Positions 12,889 to 62,190 of a DNA stretch of 64,000 nucleotides are shown here, one piece after another. A program made the position numbers and the translations under genes. The notes under the pieces are model-generated. The model was not told the DNA's origin. It did no database searches and worked only from the letters and a program-made list of their open reading frames with translations. This stretch comes from Luteitalea sp. TBR-22 (GTDB taxonomy: Bacteria; Acidobacteriota; Vicinamibacteria; Vicinamibacterales; Vicinamibacteraceae): assembly GCF_016865485.1 (NCBI RefSeq), contig NZ_AP024452.1, forward strand, positions 2,440,501 through 2,504,500. The letters are read 5' to 3'. Position 1 is the first letter of the stretch. Every line of letters begins with the position of its first letter.

Positions 12889-13018
12889 GGGCACCGGGCA
12901 CCGGGCGCCGGGCACCGAAGCTCCGGTCGCACGGGCGGCGGGCACCGGTCGTCCGGGCGGCGGTCACCGGACGCTGGCCACCGGGCACCGGTCGTGGGCA
13001 CCGGACGTCGGACGCCGG
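12889..13018. repeat. 7-bp repeat array, unit GGGCACC and variants
   Basis: Begins GGGCACC, GGGCACC, GGGCGCC, GGGCACC and continues with degenerate units (GGTCGTC, GGACGCT, GGCCACC, GGGCACC, GGACGTC), with occasional phase slips, to about 13018. It fills most of the gap between the divergent PHP and sialidase-fold genes. Confidence 0.7.
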
Positions 13019-13038
13019 GGACATCAACAGCCGCGTAG

Positions 13039-13101: not shown

Positions 13102-14457
13102 GTGCGGCTCGTCGTCCACTCCCTCACTCTCGCCACGCTCGCCGCGCTGACGCTGGTCGTCGGCGAGGCGCAGGGTCCGGCGGTGCGCGTCGTGCGCGTC
13201 ACCGGGCCCGATGCCCCGAACACCGCGGAGGTCTCGGTGGCCATCGACCCCACCAACCGCGACCACATCGTCGTGTCGGCGTACCAGGTCAATAGACCCG
13301 GCGGGACCCGCGTGCGCAACGTGCTTTTCGAGTCGCGCGATGGCGGGAGCACGTGGCGCGAGGAACTGGCGGCCAATCCGGAGCGCCGCGCGACGCAGGG
13401 CGACGACGCGGTGACGTTCGGGCCGGACGGTACGCTGTATCACTCCTACATCGCGTTCGACGGGCTGCGGGTGGCCCGGCCGACGCTGGCCCGCAACGGC
13501 ATCTTCGTCCGCCGTCGTGATGCGGCGACGGGCGGATGGGATGCGCCCATCGCGGTCATCGATCACCGCAACACCGTCGCGCCGTTCGAGGACAAGCCGT
13601 GGCCCGGGGTCGATCGCGGGGCCCGCTCGCCTCGGCGGGGCAGCGTGTACGTCGCGTGGACGCGGTTCGACGAGTACAACACCACGAGGGCCGACTGCCG
13701 CAGCGAGATCCATTTCTCGCGCTCCACCGATGGCGGGCGTTCGTTCGCGGTGCCGCTACGCATCTCCGACCGGCAGGGCACCTGCCTCGACGACGATGAC
13801 ACGGTCGAGGGGGCGGTACCGGCGGCAGGACCGGACGGCGAGGTGTACGTGGCCTGGTCGGGGCCGGCAGGCCTGGTGATCGACAGGTCCGACGACGGCG
13901 GCGTGACGTTCGGCGAGGAGCGCCTCGTGTCGGCCATCCCGGGCGGGTGGGACATCGACATCCCGGCGCTGTCGCGCAGCAACGGCATGCCCGTGACGGT
14001 GGTGGACGGCTCGGACGGCCCGCGTCGTGGCACGGTGTACGTCGCGTGGGTCGACGCGCGCCATGGTGACCCGGACGTGTTCGTCTCGTCGTCTTCGGAC
14101 AAGGGCCACACGTGGACCACGCCGGTGCGCGTGAATGCCGACGCGCAGGGCAACGGCGTGCCGCAGTTCTTCGTGTGGCTGGCGCTCGACGCCTCGACGG
14201 GCGACCTTCACGTGGTCTACCACGAACGGGTCGGGCCGACGGGCACCGAGACGCGCGTCGTGCTGGCGCGCAGCGCCGATGGCGGCCGCACCTGGACGTC
14301 GGGGCCGGTGCCGCTTGCGCCCTTCACGACGACGGCCGATGCGGCGTTCGGCGACTACAACGGCATCGACGCATCGCAGGGACGCGTGGTGGCGGTGTTC
14401 CCGCACTTCGTCGGCGAGAAGAAGGTGGGGATTTCGGTGGCGATTGCTGACCGCTGA
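13102..14457 (+). CDS. Secreted Asp-box (BNR) sialidase-fold protein
   Basis: 451 aa from a GTG placed six bases after a TATCCT hexamer; it opens into a short signal peptide (VRLVVHSLTLATLAALTLVV). Five Asp-box motifs (SxDxGxTW type) are visible: SRDGGSTW, STDGGRSF, SDDGGVTF, SSSDKGHTW and SADGGRTW. They mark the blades of a six-bladed beta-propeller. The fold is shared by sialidases and many non-enzymatic exported proteins; the sialidase arginine triad cannot be assigned, so enzymatic activity is uncertain. The last residues (Ala-Asp-Arg) and the stop codon are encoded by the first units of a GCTGACC repeat array. Confidence 0.75.
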   Translation: MRLVVHSLTLATLAALTLVVGEAQGPAVRVVRVTGPDAPNTAEVSVAIDPTNRDHIVVSAYQVNRPGGTRVRNVLFESRDGGSTWREELAANPERRATQGDDAVTFGPDGTLYHSYIAFDGLRVARPTLARNGIFVRRRDAATGGWDAPIAVIDHRNTVAPFEDKPWPGVDRGARSPRRGSVYVAWTRFDEYNTTRADCRSEIHFSRSTDGGRSFAVPLRISDRQGTCLDDDDTVEGAVPAAGPDGEVYVAWSGPAGLVIDRSDDGGVTFGEERLVSAIPGGWDIDIPALSRSNGMPVTVVDGSDGPRRGTVYVAWVDARHGDPDVFVSSSSDKGHTWTTPVRVNADAQGNGVPQFFVWLALDASTGDLHVVYHERVGPTGTETRVVLARSADGGRTWTSGPVPLAPFTTTADAAFGDYNGIDASQGRVVAVFPHFVGEKKVGISVAIADR

Positions 14458-14545
14458 CCGCTGAACGCTGACCGCCGAACCAAGGCTCAAGGCGTCAGGC
14501 TCAAGGCTCAGAACCCATTGAGCGTGATCTCTGAGCCCTGAGCCC
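14447..14545. repeat. 7-bp repeat arrays, units GCTGACC, CAAGGCT and CTGAGCC
   Basis: Ten consecutive heptads from 14447: GCTGACC x2, GCTGAAC, GCTGACC, GCCGAAC, CAAGGCT, CAAGGCG, TCAGGCT, CAAGGCT, CAGAACC. A second block, CTGAGCC x2, lies at 14532-14545. The stop codon of the upstream gene lies inside the first block. Confidence 0.75.
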
Positions 14546-15369: not shown

Positions 15370-15376
15370 CTACGCC

Positions 15377-15439
15377 CGGTGCCCGATGTCCGGCGCGCTG
15401 CGCCCGGCGCCCGGTGCCCGGTGCCCGGTGCCCGAGGTC
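15377..15439. repeat. 7-bp repeat array, unit CGGTGCC
   Basis: Nine contiguous in-phase heptads: CGGTGCC, CGATGTC, CGGCGCG, CTGCGCC, CGGCGCC, CGGTGCC x3, CGAGGTC. The array ends about 15 bp before the pgi -10 element. Confidence 0.8.
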
Positions 15440-29651: not shown

Positions 29652-31157
29652 ATGAGCGGAGGCACGGGTTCGACCTCGGCCGAAGCGCCGATTCCGGCGT
29701 TCGGCGAGGTGCTGGGGCATCCACGACCGCTGTGGATGCTGTTCATGACGGAGTTCTGGGAGCGCTTCGCCTTCTACGGCATCCGCTGGGCGCTGGTCCT
29801 CTACATCGTCGCGCAGTTCCATGCCGGCAGCCCGACGGGCGAGGAGCCGGCCAGCCAGCTGTACGGCGCGTACCTCGCACTGGTCTACGCGGCGGCGATC
29901 TTCGGCGGCTACGTGGCCGACAAGATCCTCGGCTACCAGCGGTCGATCCTGCTCGGTGCGGTGATCATGGCGTGCGGGCTCTTCATGATCGCGGTGCCCG
30001 ACCCGCGGATCTTCGAGTTCGGCCTCGCCACGGTGATCGTCGGCAACGGCCTGTTCAAGCCGAACATCTCCGCGATGGTCGGCAAGCTCTACGCGCAATC
30101 GGATGGGCGGCGCGACTCCGGCTTCACCATCTTCTACATGGGCATCAACGCGGGGGCCTTCCTCGCGCCCGTCCTGACCGGCTGGCTGGCCGAGCAGGTG
30201 TTCGGCACGGCGGCGATGCCGGCCTACAAGTACGTGTTCATCGCCTCGGGCCTGGGCATGCTGGTGAGCCTGGTGTGGTTCTGGTTCGGGCGCCGGCAGT
30301 TGCAGGGCATCGGCGCGCCGGTCGTCGGCCTCGAGGGCGTGCAGACGGTGGCCTACGTGGCGGTCGGGTGCCTGGTGGCCATCCCGGTGATGTGGGTGCT
30401 GCTGGCGCAACTGGGCGCCACGACGCTGCAGTACGTGCTCACCGCGATGTTCGTCGGGTTGTGCGCGCTGCTGCTGGCCGAGGGCGTGCGCAACGGGCCG
30501 GTGGCGCGCGACAAGGCGATCGCGATGCTGATCATCTTCGCCTTCAACGTGATGTTCTGGATGTTCTTCGAGCAGGCGGGCAGCTCGTTCACCTTCCTGG
30601 CCGACAAGATCGTCGACCGGCAGTTCGGCGACTGGACGTTCCCGGTCGCCTGGTTCCAGTCGGTCAACTCGATCGCGATCATCGGCCTGGCGCCGGTGGT
30701 GGCCTGGGTGTGGGTGAAGCTGGGGGAGTGGAACCCGTCGATCCCGCGCAAGTTCGGCCTCGGCCTGGTGTTCAACGGCCTGGCGTTCCTGCTGCTGATG
30801 TTCGCGCTCTCGAGCCTGGTCGACGCTGCCGGCAAGATCCCGTTCTGGACGCTCTTCATGGTCTACGTGATCCAGTCGGTGGGCGAGCTCTGCCTGTCGC
30901 CGATCGGCCTCTCGATGGTCACCAAGCTCGCGCCGGTGCGCCTGGTGGGCTTCGGCATGGGCGGGTGGTTCCTCTCGACCGGGATCGGCAACAACCTGTC
31001 GGGCATCTTCGCCGGGTACGTGAGCGGCGAGACCGGCATGACGACGGCCTCGGCACTGGGCGGGTACACGTTCGGCTTCTGGGCCCTGGTGATCTCGGGC
31101 GTGATCCTGCTGGCGGTGTCGCCGGTGCTGAACCGGTTGATGCACGGGGTGAAGTAG
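29652..31157 (+). CDS. POT/PTR-family proton-dependent oligopeptide transporter
   Basis: 501 aa with about 12-14 membrane helices. The first helix carries the proton-coupling ExxER motif and PTR signature (EFWERFAFYG); the second signature, FYMGINAGAFLAPVLTGWLAE, follows near residue 160, and GELCLSPIGLSMVTKLAP lies in the C-terminal half. It imports di- and tripeptides, or nitrate-type or other substrates in divergent members, with protons. A well-placed AAGGAG Shine-Dalgarno at 29641 shows that this is a leadered gene, unlike the divergent ppc. It is followed immediately by the TCATGAC repeat block of the cassette. Confidence 0.9.
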   Translation: MSGGTGSTSAEAPIPAFGEVLGHPRPLWMLFMTEFWERFAFYGIRWALVLYIVAQFHAGSPTGEEPASQLYGAYLALVYAAAIFGGYVADKILGYQRSILLGAVIMACGLFMIAVPDPRIFEFGLATVIVGNGLFKPNISAMVGKLYAQSDGRRDSGFTIFYMGINAGAFLAPVLTGWLAEQVFGTAAMPAYKYVFIASGLGMLVSLVWFWFGRRQLQGIGAPVVGLEGVQTVAYVAVGCLVAIPVMWVLLAQLGATTLQYVLTAMFVGLCALLLAEGVRNGPVARDKAIAMLIIFAFNVMFWMFFEQAGSSFTFLADKIVDRQFGDWTFPVAWFQSVNSIAIIGLAPVVAWVWVKLGEWNPSIPRKFGLGLVFNGLAFLLLMFALSSLVDAAGKIPFWTLFMVYVIQSVGELCLSPIGLSMVTKLAPVRLVGFGMGGWFLSTGIGNNLSGIFAGYVSGETGMTTASALGGYTFGFWALVISGVILLAVSPVLNRLMHGVK

Positions 31158-31169
31158 CGGGAGCCACAG

Positions 31170-31246
31170 TCATGACTCATGAGTCATGACTCATGACGAG
31201 CAAAGGGGAAAGGGGCAAGGGACAAGGGGAGAAGGGGAGAAGACCC
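31170..31246. repeat. Left heptad block of the cassette
   Basis: Contiguous heptads: TCATGAC, TCATGAG, TCATGAC, TCATGAC, GAGCAAA, GGGGAAA, GGGGCAA, GGGACAA, GGGGAGA, then degenerate purine-rich units. Confidence 0.75.
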
Positions 31247-31263
31247 AGGGGCGGTGCCGGCTG

Positions 31264-31611
31264 TCATCTGCGCGCTGATCGGGAGATCGCGGAGATCACC
31301 TGCCCGACCGACGTGGCTTCGACTCGCAGCTCCTGCAGGACAGGCTTCTCGAACACCCCGACGGCTTCGGCGAGGCGCAGCCACCACTGCGCCTCGCCGA
31401 TTTCCTTTTTCGAGATGGCCACCTTGGCAACGAAGTCGGGCTTCGACTGCGCCGCCGTGGCTTCCGACAGGTTTGCGCCTACCGACGTCGCCGACGCCAC
31501 GAGCTGTCGGCTGATGGCCCGGCGAACGATGTCCTTGAACCACGGATCGTCGCTGAGTGCGCAGACGCGCACGGCAAACACGAAGGCGCGATCATGGATG
31601 TCATGTCGCAT
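31264..31611 (-). CDS. Four-helix-bundle protein (S23/Avd-like, TIGR02436 type)
   Basis: 115 aa from the ATG at 31611, which has a GAAGG ribosome site; a TTG ten codons upstream is the alternative. The sequence has the family pattern: an N-terminal helix (AFVFAVRVCAL), then ISRQLVASATSVGANLSEA with the conserved Gly-Ala-Asn-Leu-Ser-Glu turn, a KPDFVAKVAISKKEIGEAQWW helix and a final Leu-rich helix. Relatives are encoded by 23S rRNA intervening sequences and as accessory (Avd) proteins of diversity-generating retroelements. Neither an rRNA nor a reverse transcriptase is present here. The function is unknown. The gene sits centrally between mirrored repeat blocks. Confidence 0.8.
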   Translation of the reverse strand: MRHDIHDRAFVFAVRVCALSDDPWFKDIVRRAISRQLVASATSVGANLSEATAAQSKPDFVAKVAISKKEIGEAQWWLRLAEAVGVFEKPVLQELRVEATSVGQVISAISRSARR

Positions 31612-31761
31612 GTCGCAGACCTTCTGCAGCGCGTGTGCCAACGCGCCACCTCACAAAACGCCATCTGCCGGTCGCCGACCTACGGCGGCGAGTCAAGACC
31701 TGCCATCACAACGACGAGGAGCCGGAGGCAGAAACTGCCATCCGGCTCCTTTGTCCTTCTA

Positions 31762-31827
31762 CCTTGCCCCTTGCCCCTTCAGTCCTTGCCGGTCATGACT
31801 CATGACTCATGACTGATGACTCACGAC
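31762..31827. repeat. Right heptad block of the cassette
   Basis: CCTTGCC x2, CCTTCAG, TCCTTGC, a 3-nt break, then TCATGAC x3, TGATGAC, TCACGAC. It mirrors the left block. It ends 13 bp before the ferredoxin stop codon. Confidence 0.75.
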
Positions 31828-31840
31828 CGAGCCGCCAGCC

Positions 31841-32188
31841 TCACACCCACTCCGGCGGCGGCTGGATCGCCGGATCCGGCGGGCCGCCGGCGTCGGCGCG
31901 GCCGGAGCCTTCCAGGCGGCTGATCGCGCGCACGGTCATGTCGTGGTCGCAGGCGATCTGGCACGAGAGGCGCACGCCCGTGAGCCCCTTCTGCTCGAGC
32001 TTCTCCTTCTCGGCGCGCGTCATCGTCGAGGGCTCGCCCTCGATGAACTCGACGCGGCAGGTGGTGCAGCGGGCATTGCCGCCGCAGGCGTGGAGGATGT
32101 CCACGCCCTGCTGCTCGATGGCCAGCACCAGCCGCTGCCCCTGCGGCACGTCGTACGTCCCCACTCCCTCGATCGTCAGTTTCGGCAT
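31841..32188 (-). CDS. [2Fe-2S] ferredoxin (plant/adrenodoxin type)
   Basis: 115 aa. The cluster ligands are Cys35, Cys41, Cys44 (HACGGNARCTTC) and Cys76 (LSCQIAC), the spacing of adrenodoxin/plant-type ferredoxins. It is a soluble one-electron carrier. The 25-residue C-terminal tail is Gly/Pro-rich. The partner is not evident; the upstream epimerase gene on the same strand is separated by a heptad array, so co-transcription is possible but unproven. Confidence 0.85.
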   Translation of the reverse strand: MPKLTIEGVGTYDVPQGQRLVLAIEQQGVDILHACGGNARCTTCRVEFIEGEPSTMTRAEKEKLEQKGLTGVRLSCQIACDHDMTVRAISRLEGSGRADAGGPPDPAIQPPPEWV

Positions 32189-32228
32189 CTGTATCCCTCT
32201 GGCCGCGGCGTCGATCGCCCGGCATTCC

Positions 32229-32263
32229 GATCCGCGATCCGCGGAACCCGATCCGCGAATCCC
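32229..32263. repeat. 7-bp repeat array, unit GATCCGC
   Basis: Five contiguous heptads: GATCCGC x2, GGAACCC, GATCCGC, GAATCCC. The last base is the final base of the epimerase stop codon on the minus strand. Confidence 0.75.
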
Positions 32264-33339
32264 TAGAAGAACTTCTTCAACAGCCCGATCGCGCCCTGCT
32301 TCCACGGCACCCGGTGCGAGATGCCCGAGGCCTGCGCGAACGAATCCTTGTGCGCGATGTACCACTCGAAGTTCCGCAGCAGCGCGTCGCGGTTCGAGTA
32401 CTTCGGCGTGAACTGCAACTGGCGCTCGGCCTTCTCGATCGAGACGAACGAGTCCTTCGACGCCGTCTCGTAGACCCACTTGTACAGCGGCGATACCCCG
32501 AGCGCCTCGAGGAACCGCAGGCCCCAGATGGCCGGGGCCGCCGGGAAGCCGACGATCTTCCTGCCGAACCCGGCGCGATCGAGCACCACCTGGTAATCCT
32601 CGCGCATGGTGAGGAATTCCTTGGCGCCGATGTTGAACGTGTCGTTCACCGCCTCGACGGGCAACTCGAGGCAGCGCACGATCGCCTCGCACAGGTCCTC
32701 GACGTCGAGCAACTGGTAGCGGTTGCGCCCGTTGCCGATCATCGGGAAGTTGCGCTGGTCGAGCGCCCAGTCGTACAGCAGCGCGAACACGCCGAGGCGC
32801 TCGGGTCCGATGAACGACTTGGGCCGCAGTACGGGCACCACCATGCCCGCCTTCCGGAAGCTCTCGGCGACCCCCTCGGCCTCGACCTTGGCGATCCCGT
32901 AGGGGCCCACGCCGTGCAGCGCGTCATCCTCCTTCAGGGGATGGTGGTCCGGGATGCCGTAGACGGCCGTGGACGAGATGTGGACGAACCGCGCGACGCC
33001 ATGGTCGCGCGACGCCTCCAGCATGATGCGGGTGCCGACGACGTCGGTCGTGTGGATGTCCTCGGGCGAGTAGAGCGGCAGCGCCGCGGCGCAATGGACC
33101 ACGTGCGTGCAGCCCTCGAGCGCGGTGTCCACGTCGGCGCGCTTCCGGATGTCGCCGAGCACCACGCGCACGTGCGGCGTCATGTCGGGGTATCCGAAGG
33201 GCTCGATGTCGAGCGACGAGGTCGCGTATCCCCGCGCATGCAGGTAGCGCAGCAGGTTGATGCCGAGGAAGCCGGATCCGCCCGTCACCAGCACCCGGGG
33301 CGCGCGCACAGGCTCTGCGATGGTCATCGTGTCAGCCAC
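32263..33339 (-). CDS. NAD-dependent epimerase/dehydratase (extended SDR)
   Basis: 358 aa. The Rossmann motif VLVTGGSGFLGINLL, the ISSTAVYG segment with catalytic Ser/Thr, and the active-site YGIAK (Tyr-x3-Lys) define an extended short-chain dehydrogenase. It probably acts on a nucleotide sugar or similar substrate, which is not identifiable from sequence. The GTG at 33339 is accepted as start because a TACACT hexamer lies eight bases upstream; an ATG four codons later is the alternative. A C-terminal Lys-Lys-Phe-Phe ends the protein next to a heptad array. Confidence 0.85.
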   Translation of the reverse strand: MADTMTIAEPVRAPRVLVTGGSGFLGINLLRYLHARGYATSSLDIEPFGYPDMTPHVRVVLGDIRKRADVDTALEGCTHVVHCAAALPLYSPEDIHTTDVVGTRIMLEASRDHGVARFVHISSTAVYGIPDHHPLKEDDALHGVGPYGIAKVEAEGVAESFRKAGMVVPVLRPKSFIGPERLGVFALLYDWALDQRNFPMIGNGRNRYQLLDVEDLCEAIVRCLELPVEAVNDTFNIGAKEFLTMREDYQVVLDRAGFGRKIVGFPAAPAIWGLRFLEALGVSPLYKWVYETASKDSFVSIEKAERQLQFTPKYSNRDALLRNFEWYIAHKDSFAQASGISHRVPWKQGAIGLLKKFF

Positions 33340-62054: not shown

Positions 62055-62060
62055 GGGGCT

Positions 62061-62190
62061 GACGTCTGGCGTCTGACGTCTGACGTTTGACGTCTGACGT
62101 TTGACGTCGGTACCTCTTCGCCTGGGCGCTTCGCCTGAGCCTCGAGCCCTGAGTGCTGAGCCCCGTCAAGCGTTAGACGTCAAGCGTCAA
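62061..62190. repeat. Two 7-bp repeat arrays between convergent TIG gene and ispG
   Basis: First array 62061-62109: GACGTCT, GGCGTCT, GACGTCT, GACGTTT, GACGTCT, GACGTTT, GACGTCG. Second array 62135-62190: CTGAGCC, TCGAGCC, CTGAGTG, CTGAGCC, CCGTCAA, GCGTTAG, ACGTCAA, GCGTCAA. The second contains the ispG stop codon and its last five codons. Confidence 0.8.

Follow-up and report, generated by a model that had tools for sequence, protein, structure and literature searches.

A 64,000-nucleotide stretch of the genome of Luteitalea sp. TBR-22 (contig NZ_AP024452.1, positions 2,440,501 to 2,504,500), referred to below as the window, contains a gene of the S23/IVP four-helix-bundle family enclosed between arrays of 7-nucleotide repeats (heptads) that mirror each other. 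The cassette probably belongs to a widespread class of minimal insertion elements that consist of a single S23/IVP open reading frame (ORF) and inverted arrays of about 7-bp units, with the S23 protein guiding insertion. Sequence comparisons indicate that the mirrored-heptad S23 unit recurs across many bacteria and some archaea. Such units may account for the 7-letter repeats that have long been observed at scattered places in bacterial genomes.

In a repeat search, the window arms formed a single inverted pair (31168-31227 and 31762-31821; 60 nt, 82% complementary). The left and right arms aligned with a score of 70, compared to a maximum of 36 among 5000 first-order Markov shuffles. The enclosed ORF matched PF05635 (E=1.2e-16, 61.3 bits, cut-off 33.8) and TIGR02436 (E=2.1e-19, 69.7 bits, cut-off 24). 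These results confirm the first-pass annotation, made from the letters alone, which had described mirrored double heptad ends around one minus-strand S23/Avd-like gene. It had also seen neither rRNA nor reverse transcriptase (RT) here. Indeed, no rRNA match was found within positions 30500-32500 at E values up to 1, and the RT profile RVT_1 had no match in the source genome (G000, a single contig), while the same search was positive in 3/14 control genomes. The S23 gene was the only gene seen between the flanking transporter and ferredoxin genes, the rest being overlapping mechanical ORFs. It matched S23-type models only, and no known transposase, in Pfam and NCBIfam. An Rfam scan returned two chance-level matches, neither reaching the gathering score.

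The surroundings of other S23 genes were assayed with a mirror score, obtained by aligning the left flank to the reverse-complemented right flank. Flanks swapped between loci and the direct orientation served as controls. The related set covered 40 genomes including G000, 30 of them with PF05635 matches (142 in total), from which 73 loci, mostly better-scoring, were taken; 72 of these, with 200 bp or more on either side, were scored, and the remaining one was dropped for a short flank. Own flanks scored at least 36 at 52/72 loci, compared to 22/864 for swapped flanks and 9/72 for the direct orientation; at a score of at least 44, these counts were 42/72, 10/864 and 8/72. The many-phyla set came from an independent scan, the best 80 loci of which were listed, and includes Methanophagales archaea and candidate phyla. 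After four of the 80 were dropped for short flanks, 44 of the 76 loci used scored at least 36 (swapped 10/912, direct 9/76) and 27 at least 44 (6/912 and 8/76). The third set came from the family to which G040 belongs (a Lysobacteraceae genome, source of locus L128), in which 54/119 genomes have S23. Its best 30 loci scored at least 36 in 24 cases (swapped 31/360, direct 3/30) and at least 44 in 17 (11/360 and 1/30); one of them, L253, and L128 of the many-phyla set are one gene. Thus, mirrored heptads, which the first-pass annotation had suggested looking for around other four-helix genes, recur strongly.

The best period was 7 or 14 in 37 of the 52 related-set arms scoring at least 36, and 4, 8, 9, 10, 16, 17 or 18 in the others. 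As aligned, the repeat unit differs between loci while the two arms of one locus match. The particular ends first described, TCATGAC and GGGGCAA/TTGCCCC, are therefore general in one respect only: the mirror match recurs, but the sequence is not fixed and the unit is locus-specific. GGGATTC or GGGAATC had been predicted beforehand at S23 genes of the G040 family, because 2gsc, a member of the S23 protein family, is XCC0516; about one third of the 30 G040-family loci bear one of these heptads, and others carry variants, e.g. CGGGACC or GTGAATC. Among 36 plasmid records with a PF05635 match, mostly from Nostoc and relatives, 14 mainly better-ranked ones were taken and scored on own flanks only: ten reached at least 36, three lay between 29 and 34, and one scored 20. 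A search of 50,697 phage records with one S23 query gave no match at E≤1e-5.

The arm preceding the gene showed an excess of G over C on the coding strand at 42/52 loci, orthologues included. At L021, L051 and L032, the array appears to extend into the C-terminal codons of the S23 ORF, giving repetitive protein tails such as SPQSPAPS.

Eight plasmid loci (sites A to H) were compared with relatives lacking the S23 gene. Site A is occupied in L188 and L198, and empty in L182 (another plasmid of the L188 strain), L196, L197 and L203. The insert there is 418 bp long with TTCTA at both edges, and the L188 and L182 flanks are 91-92% identical. Site D is occupied in L194 and L208 and empty in L205, with a flank identity of 99.7% and 99%; its insert is 428 bp long and has GTAAT at both edges. 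In a simple simulation, the chance of at least five matching bases at one fixed junction was about 0.002. When site A was submitted to Blast, four records aligned over the unit alone, with left edges at 1942-1951 and right edges at 2360-2362 of L188, and the empty site places the unit limits at 1944-2361. Three of these four records are site D copies, and the fourth is from Aulosira. From plasmid presence and absence together with the Blast edges, the mobile unit therefore consists of the gene plus the arrays. Comparison of the plasmid records shows the gene and both arrays to come and go together at these intergenic sites.

At site B, L200 (1199-1500) and L204 (1199-1580) carry mirrored heptads without an S23 gene, and at site D L207 (860-1060) carries a truncated copy (all by eye). 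Judging from their sequences, these units, with mirrored or single heptad ends at sites where other plasmids have full elements, are possible non-autonomous derivatives. S23 elements were also seen on cyanobacterial plasmids inside clustered regularly interspaced short palindromic repeat (CRISPR) operons, where they separate cas10 from cmr3 or cas6 from cas4 (L189, 1989-2345; L187, 1989-2357; L191, 1992-2351).

The product of the window gene was modelled by AlphaFold2 as four helices, with a mean predicted local distance difference test score of 96. Its computed isoelectric point is 9.7, as is the median of 72 relatives. In nine chosen pairs the synonymous distance (dS, 0.7-1.9, near saturation) always exceeded the non-synonymous distance (dN, 0.07-0.44), which places the ORF under purifying selection at the protein level. 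Residues Q36, S43, N47, E50 and E73 (115-residue numbering) are invariant over 26 sequences; no catalytic signature is claimed. Its PDB relatives by sequence, 2rld and 2gsc, also lead the Foldseek list, and a designed bundle ranks between them in VIA-align.

How such a protein might act can be approached by analogy with repetitive extragenic palindromes (REPs) and REP-associated tyrosine transposases (RAYTs). In passages of PMC3116915, the RAYT gene lies beside its own repeat type, copies of the repeat are dispersed in the genome, and the RAYT is thought to recognise REPs. The S23 gene likewise adjoins its own repeat type; like repeats are dispersed in some S23-bearing genomes, but the outer unit of the window cassette matched none of the sampled G000 arrays. 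It differs in lacking the Y1 tyrosine transposase, in having tandem heptads instead of palindromes, and in being present or absent jointly with its ends. A REP/RAYT-like model appears to fit best, in which the basic S23 protein would recognise its own heptad arrays as the element ends. It would then direct insertion through a staggered cut, with about 5 bp duplicated, the cutting and polymerising enzymes being borrowed from the host or from co-resident elements. Solo heptads and mirrored heptads devoid of S23 could be non-autonomous derivatives or leftovers of the element, and the intervening sequences (IVSs) of 23S rRNA would be elements of this kind trapped inside rRNA.

The IVS of Coxiella, according to sections of PMC4990558, has an S23 ORF preceded by heptameric repeats, a 428-nt unit, a 28-bp terminal stem and excision by RNase III. 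An RNA-level element, whose arms would form a long RNA stem around the S23 message for excision by RNase III and would be maintained for the sake of that stem, with movement by rare recombination, is nevertheless unlikely here. The window arms do fold into a single long stem (z=-9.3 vs 20 shuffles), but stable folding is expected of any good inverted repeat, regardless of function. At 10/14 plasmid loci the gene is co-directional with both of its co-directional neighbours, as this explanation would favour. However, the arm mismatches showed no G-U preference on the gene strand (74 sense, 76 antisense and 153 other, over 52 loci), and the target duplications at sites A and D point to DNA insertion. 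Without a strand bias, RNA-strand selection on the arms was rejected; the stem itself was retained among the rivals.

The unit contains no known transposase and its short duplications are like those of many transposases. It could therefore be regarded as a passenger resembling a miniature inverted-repeat transposable element (MITE), on which a transposase or RT encoded elsewhere acts in trans, with S23 as cargo or regulator. We consider this quite improbable. The end sequences differ at most loci, and could therefore hardly be recognised by one transposase. RVT_1 had no match in G000 and none in 9/14 further S23-bearing genomes, the negatives other than single-contig G001 being drafts that may miss genes; the other five were positive. 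The fold does resemble the accessory protein Avd of diversity-generating retroelements (DGRs), but the Z scores of Avd chains (4dwl, 8ub7 and others) against the window model, 9.5-9.9, are not above those of unrelated helical bundles. Y1 was the only transposase family searched for; it gave two weak Y1_Tnp matches at other places in G000, with no heptad arrays in 3.2 kb, and a Y1 partner was rejected. An RT as obligate resident partner was rejected in view of the missing RVT_1 match in G000, and a resident RT seems not to be required.

Avd and the window protein are both four-helix bundles of similar size. Weak PF05635 matches adjoin RT pieces at C6 and C16 of G044, and also at C298 of G017 by coordinates; these genes look like DGR Avd. 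Two of the RT-adjacent genes, L267 and L268, have no mirror match (scores 19 and 22), which, with the lack of RVT_1 in G000, sets the mirrored-heptad units apart from DGRs. G044 itself (genome of L102; loci L251, L254 and L259-L268) is a 1.1-Mb genome of a candidate phylum with 12 PF05635 and eight RVT_1 matches.

The window locus was compared across the genus, the transporter being found in all five genomes searched. In G000 and G001 the element sits between transporter and ferredoxin. In G003 these two genes are adjacent, about 190 bp apart, with no element and a short heptad-like run (by eye), which bears on the question, raised in the first-pass annotation, of empty and filled sites in sister strains. 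G002 and G004 have different genes downstream of the transporter and are uninformative. Being in G000 and G001 and absent from G003, the element is neither recent nor fixed at this locus. The suggestion of a mobile unit with repeat-array ends thus holds for the type of unit, given its plasmid relatives, but the window copy is an old resident, probably not moving.

Its repeat unit has changed: in G001 it reads GTCATTG/GTCATGG, with both arms altered. Concerted change of the arms was seen in four orthologous pairs, in which own-arm scores exceeded cross scores: L038/L005, the window locus in G001 and G000 (own 72/70, cross 31/33), L036/L002 (56/46, 24/25), L017/L001 (38/55, 20/23) and L039/L004 (40/52, 21/30).

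Period-7 arrays are common in the host genome. G000 contained 48 lag-7 arrays in 464 kb, compared to 0-7 at ten other lags, and lag 7 also led in samples of G001, G030 and G012 (55, 26 and 34 arrays vs 0-14 at seven other lags). Therefore heptads are not special per se; their mirrored, matched arrangement is. The base rate of this arrangement was measured in the same 464 kb with 600-bp flanks, a 315-bp core and 150-bp steps, i.e. 2897 overlapping positions. An inverted score of at least 44 occurred at seven positions and one of at least 52 at a single position, the window element; equally spaced direct repeats were commoner (68 positions at 44 or more). Six PF05635 matches were found in G000 by profile search. 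Mirrored heptads flank five of these genes, each with a unit of its own (GGGAGTC, CGGCAGT, GGCTCAG, AATTTGA and TCATGAC); around the weakly matching sixth, no matching repeat pair lies within 600 bp.

Heptads abound outside the surroundings of S23 genes as well (400 kb of G000 held 41 lag-7 arrays), which might suggest a hot-spot, where slippage makes intergenic arrays, S23 genes survive between them, and the inverted match arises by hairpin-templated repair, also called quasi-palindrome correction. The equal wobble counts and the concerted arm change are also expected from such correction, and the gene-free G003 retains its heptad-like run. We nonetheless regard this explanation as highly improbable, since mirrored pairs as strong as that of the window are nearly absent elsewhere in G000. 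Moreover, simple insertion into a pre-existing array, a candidate that we rejected, would yield direct and not inverted flanks, and, by eye, no heptad array was seen at plasmid sites A, C, D and F where these are empty. Whatever moves the element, hairpin-templated correction could still maintain the similarity of its arms.

Dispersed heptads were then related to S23 genes. In the G040 family, three GGGAWTC units in tandem were present in 39/54 genomes with S23 and 9/65 without, and at least five such matches in 33/54 and 8/65, kinship being ignored in both comparisons; the reversed control pattern occurred four times in the 119 genomes. In each of four sampled genomes, exact matches to the dispersed arrays were more frequent for units of the resident S23 genes than for units from the other three: 16/41 arrays vs 4, 0 and 0 in G000, and 3, 5 and 3 vs none in the remaining genomes. 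With one mismatch allowed, the excess persisted in three of the four; G001 units matched 24% of G001 arrays and 26% of G012 arrays. A heptad consensus was too weak a motif to be used (3.3 bits vs 2.5-2.9 in 12 shuffled sets). A bolder and unlikely proposal is that S23 is the mobility protein of a new autonomous class that makes its heptad ends itself, by writing or copying them, the scattered heptads of cyanobacteria, xanthomonads, Acidobacteriota and others being its footprints. The element would then, just as tentatively, rank among the smallest known, with 418-428 bp at two sites, an ORF of about 120 codons and heptad ends.

Several observations weigh against an S23-guided insertion element. 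Heptad binding by S23 is inferred, and any DNA cutting by it would be hypothetical. The mirror score was below 30 at 10/72 related, 22/76 many-phyla and 2/30 G040-family loci. Duplication was clear at 2/8 plasmid sites; it was short at C (TTAG, L184/L202) and imperfect at F (L182/L188, L196), and no junction could be placed at sites B, E, G and H. No clean empty junction was found at the window's locus. The unit was unchanged in several orthologous pairs, e.g. L015/L001 and L042/L049. The GGGAWTC heptad also occurs in the nine S23-minus genomes counted above, and G066 has 124 tandem GGGAWTC matches, yet its examined S23 gene bears another unit. The window's outer unit matched 0/41 sampled G000 arrays. 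Finally, neighbouring arrays at most 1.5 kb apart in the four-genome samples (156 arrays, 41 pairs) gave seven inverted matches, five direct matches and 29 without match; with just seven inverted pairs, solo arrays make up most of the dispersed ones and would be presumed derivatives of the element.

Cyanobacterial STRRs are short tandem heptad repeats. They share with the S23 units a 7-nt unit and tandem intergenic arrays, and GGGAATC/GGGATTC also occurs at S23 genes of the G040 family; here, however, the heptads are the matched ends of S23 genes. Sections of PMC4692102 describe GGGAATC heptads in Xanthomonas and Nostoc, counting 70 inverted pairs in one Xanthomonas genome and 75 in another, and sections of PMC4679880 describe TAACTGA heptads in Beggiatoaceae and speculate on a protein that binds the repeats as the possible mobile element. 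The origin of the xanthomonad, cyanobacterial and Beggiatoaceae heptads is presented there as not settled. Neither "four helix" nor "S23" occurs in the main texts of these two papers, and no work joining intergenic S23 genes with mirrored heptads was found among the matches listed in open-access PMC papers. If S23 gene and heptads are one element, the origin of heptad repeats becomes testable, and a protein family whose members are labelled hypothetical, "four helix bundle" or "S23 ribosomal protein" gains a role.

The function and origin of 23S rRNA IVSs are likewise described as unclear in part of PMC4990558. IVSs and the window element have in common the S23/IVP protein family and terminal inverted repeats. 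The window element differs in being intergenic (between a POT transporter and Fer2) and not inside 23S rRNA, and the mirrored units differ in that their ends are tandem arrays with a locus-specific unit, with target duplication in two plasmid relatives. If S23 gene and heptads are one element, a broad class of mobile elements would include rRNA IVSs as one special case. Terminal inverted repeats are also shared with insertion sequences (ISs) and MITEs, but, unlike in an IS, the cassette gene matches no known transposase. A single small protein serving locus-specific end sequences would, if true, raise a new question in DNA recognition.

The layout of the window cassette and its neighbours is given below. 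The outer left array is the 3' arm because the enclosed S23 gene lies on the minus strand.

Features of the S23 cassette and its two flanking genes (window coordinates).
Feature	Position	Strand	Remarks
Outer left heptad array, TCATGAC, 4 units	31168..31197	none	3' arm of element
Inner left heptad-like array, AAAGGGG/AAGGGGC	about 31202..31238	none	
S23/IVP four-helix-bundle gene	31264..31611	-	115 aa; likely start 31611, ORF open to 31641
Inner right array, CCTTCTACCTTGCCCCTTGCCCCTT (GCCCCTT blocks)	about 31755..31779	none	mirrors inner left array
Outer right heptad array, TCATGAC, 5 units	31792..31827	none	mirrors 31168-31197; 5' arm
POT-family peptide transporter	29652..31157	+	left side of insertion site (profile match)
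2Fe-2S ferredoxin-like protein, Fer2, PF00111	31841..32188	-	right side of insertion site

More heptad arrays without a PF05635 match were seen in the window, at 694-718 (AATTTCA), 12889-13019 (GGGCACC), 14446-14510 (GCTGACC), 15374-15434 (GCCCGGT) and 62059-62108 (CTGACGT). These are possible solo ends or derivatives.
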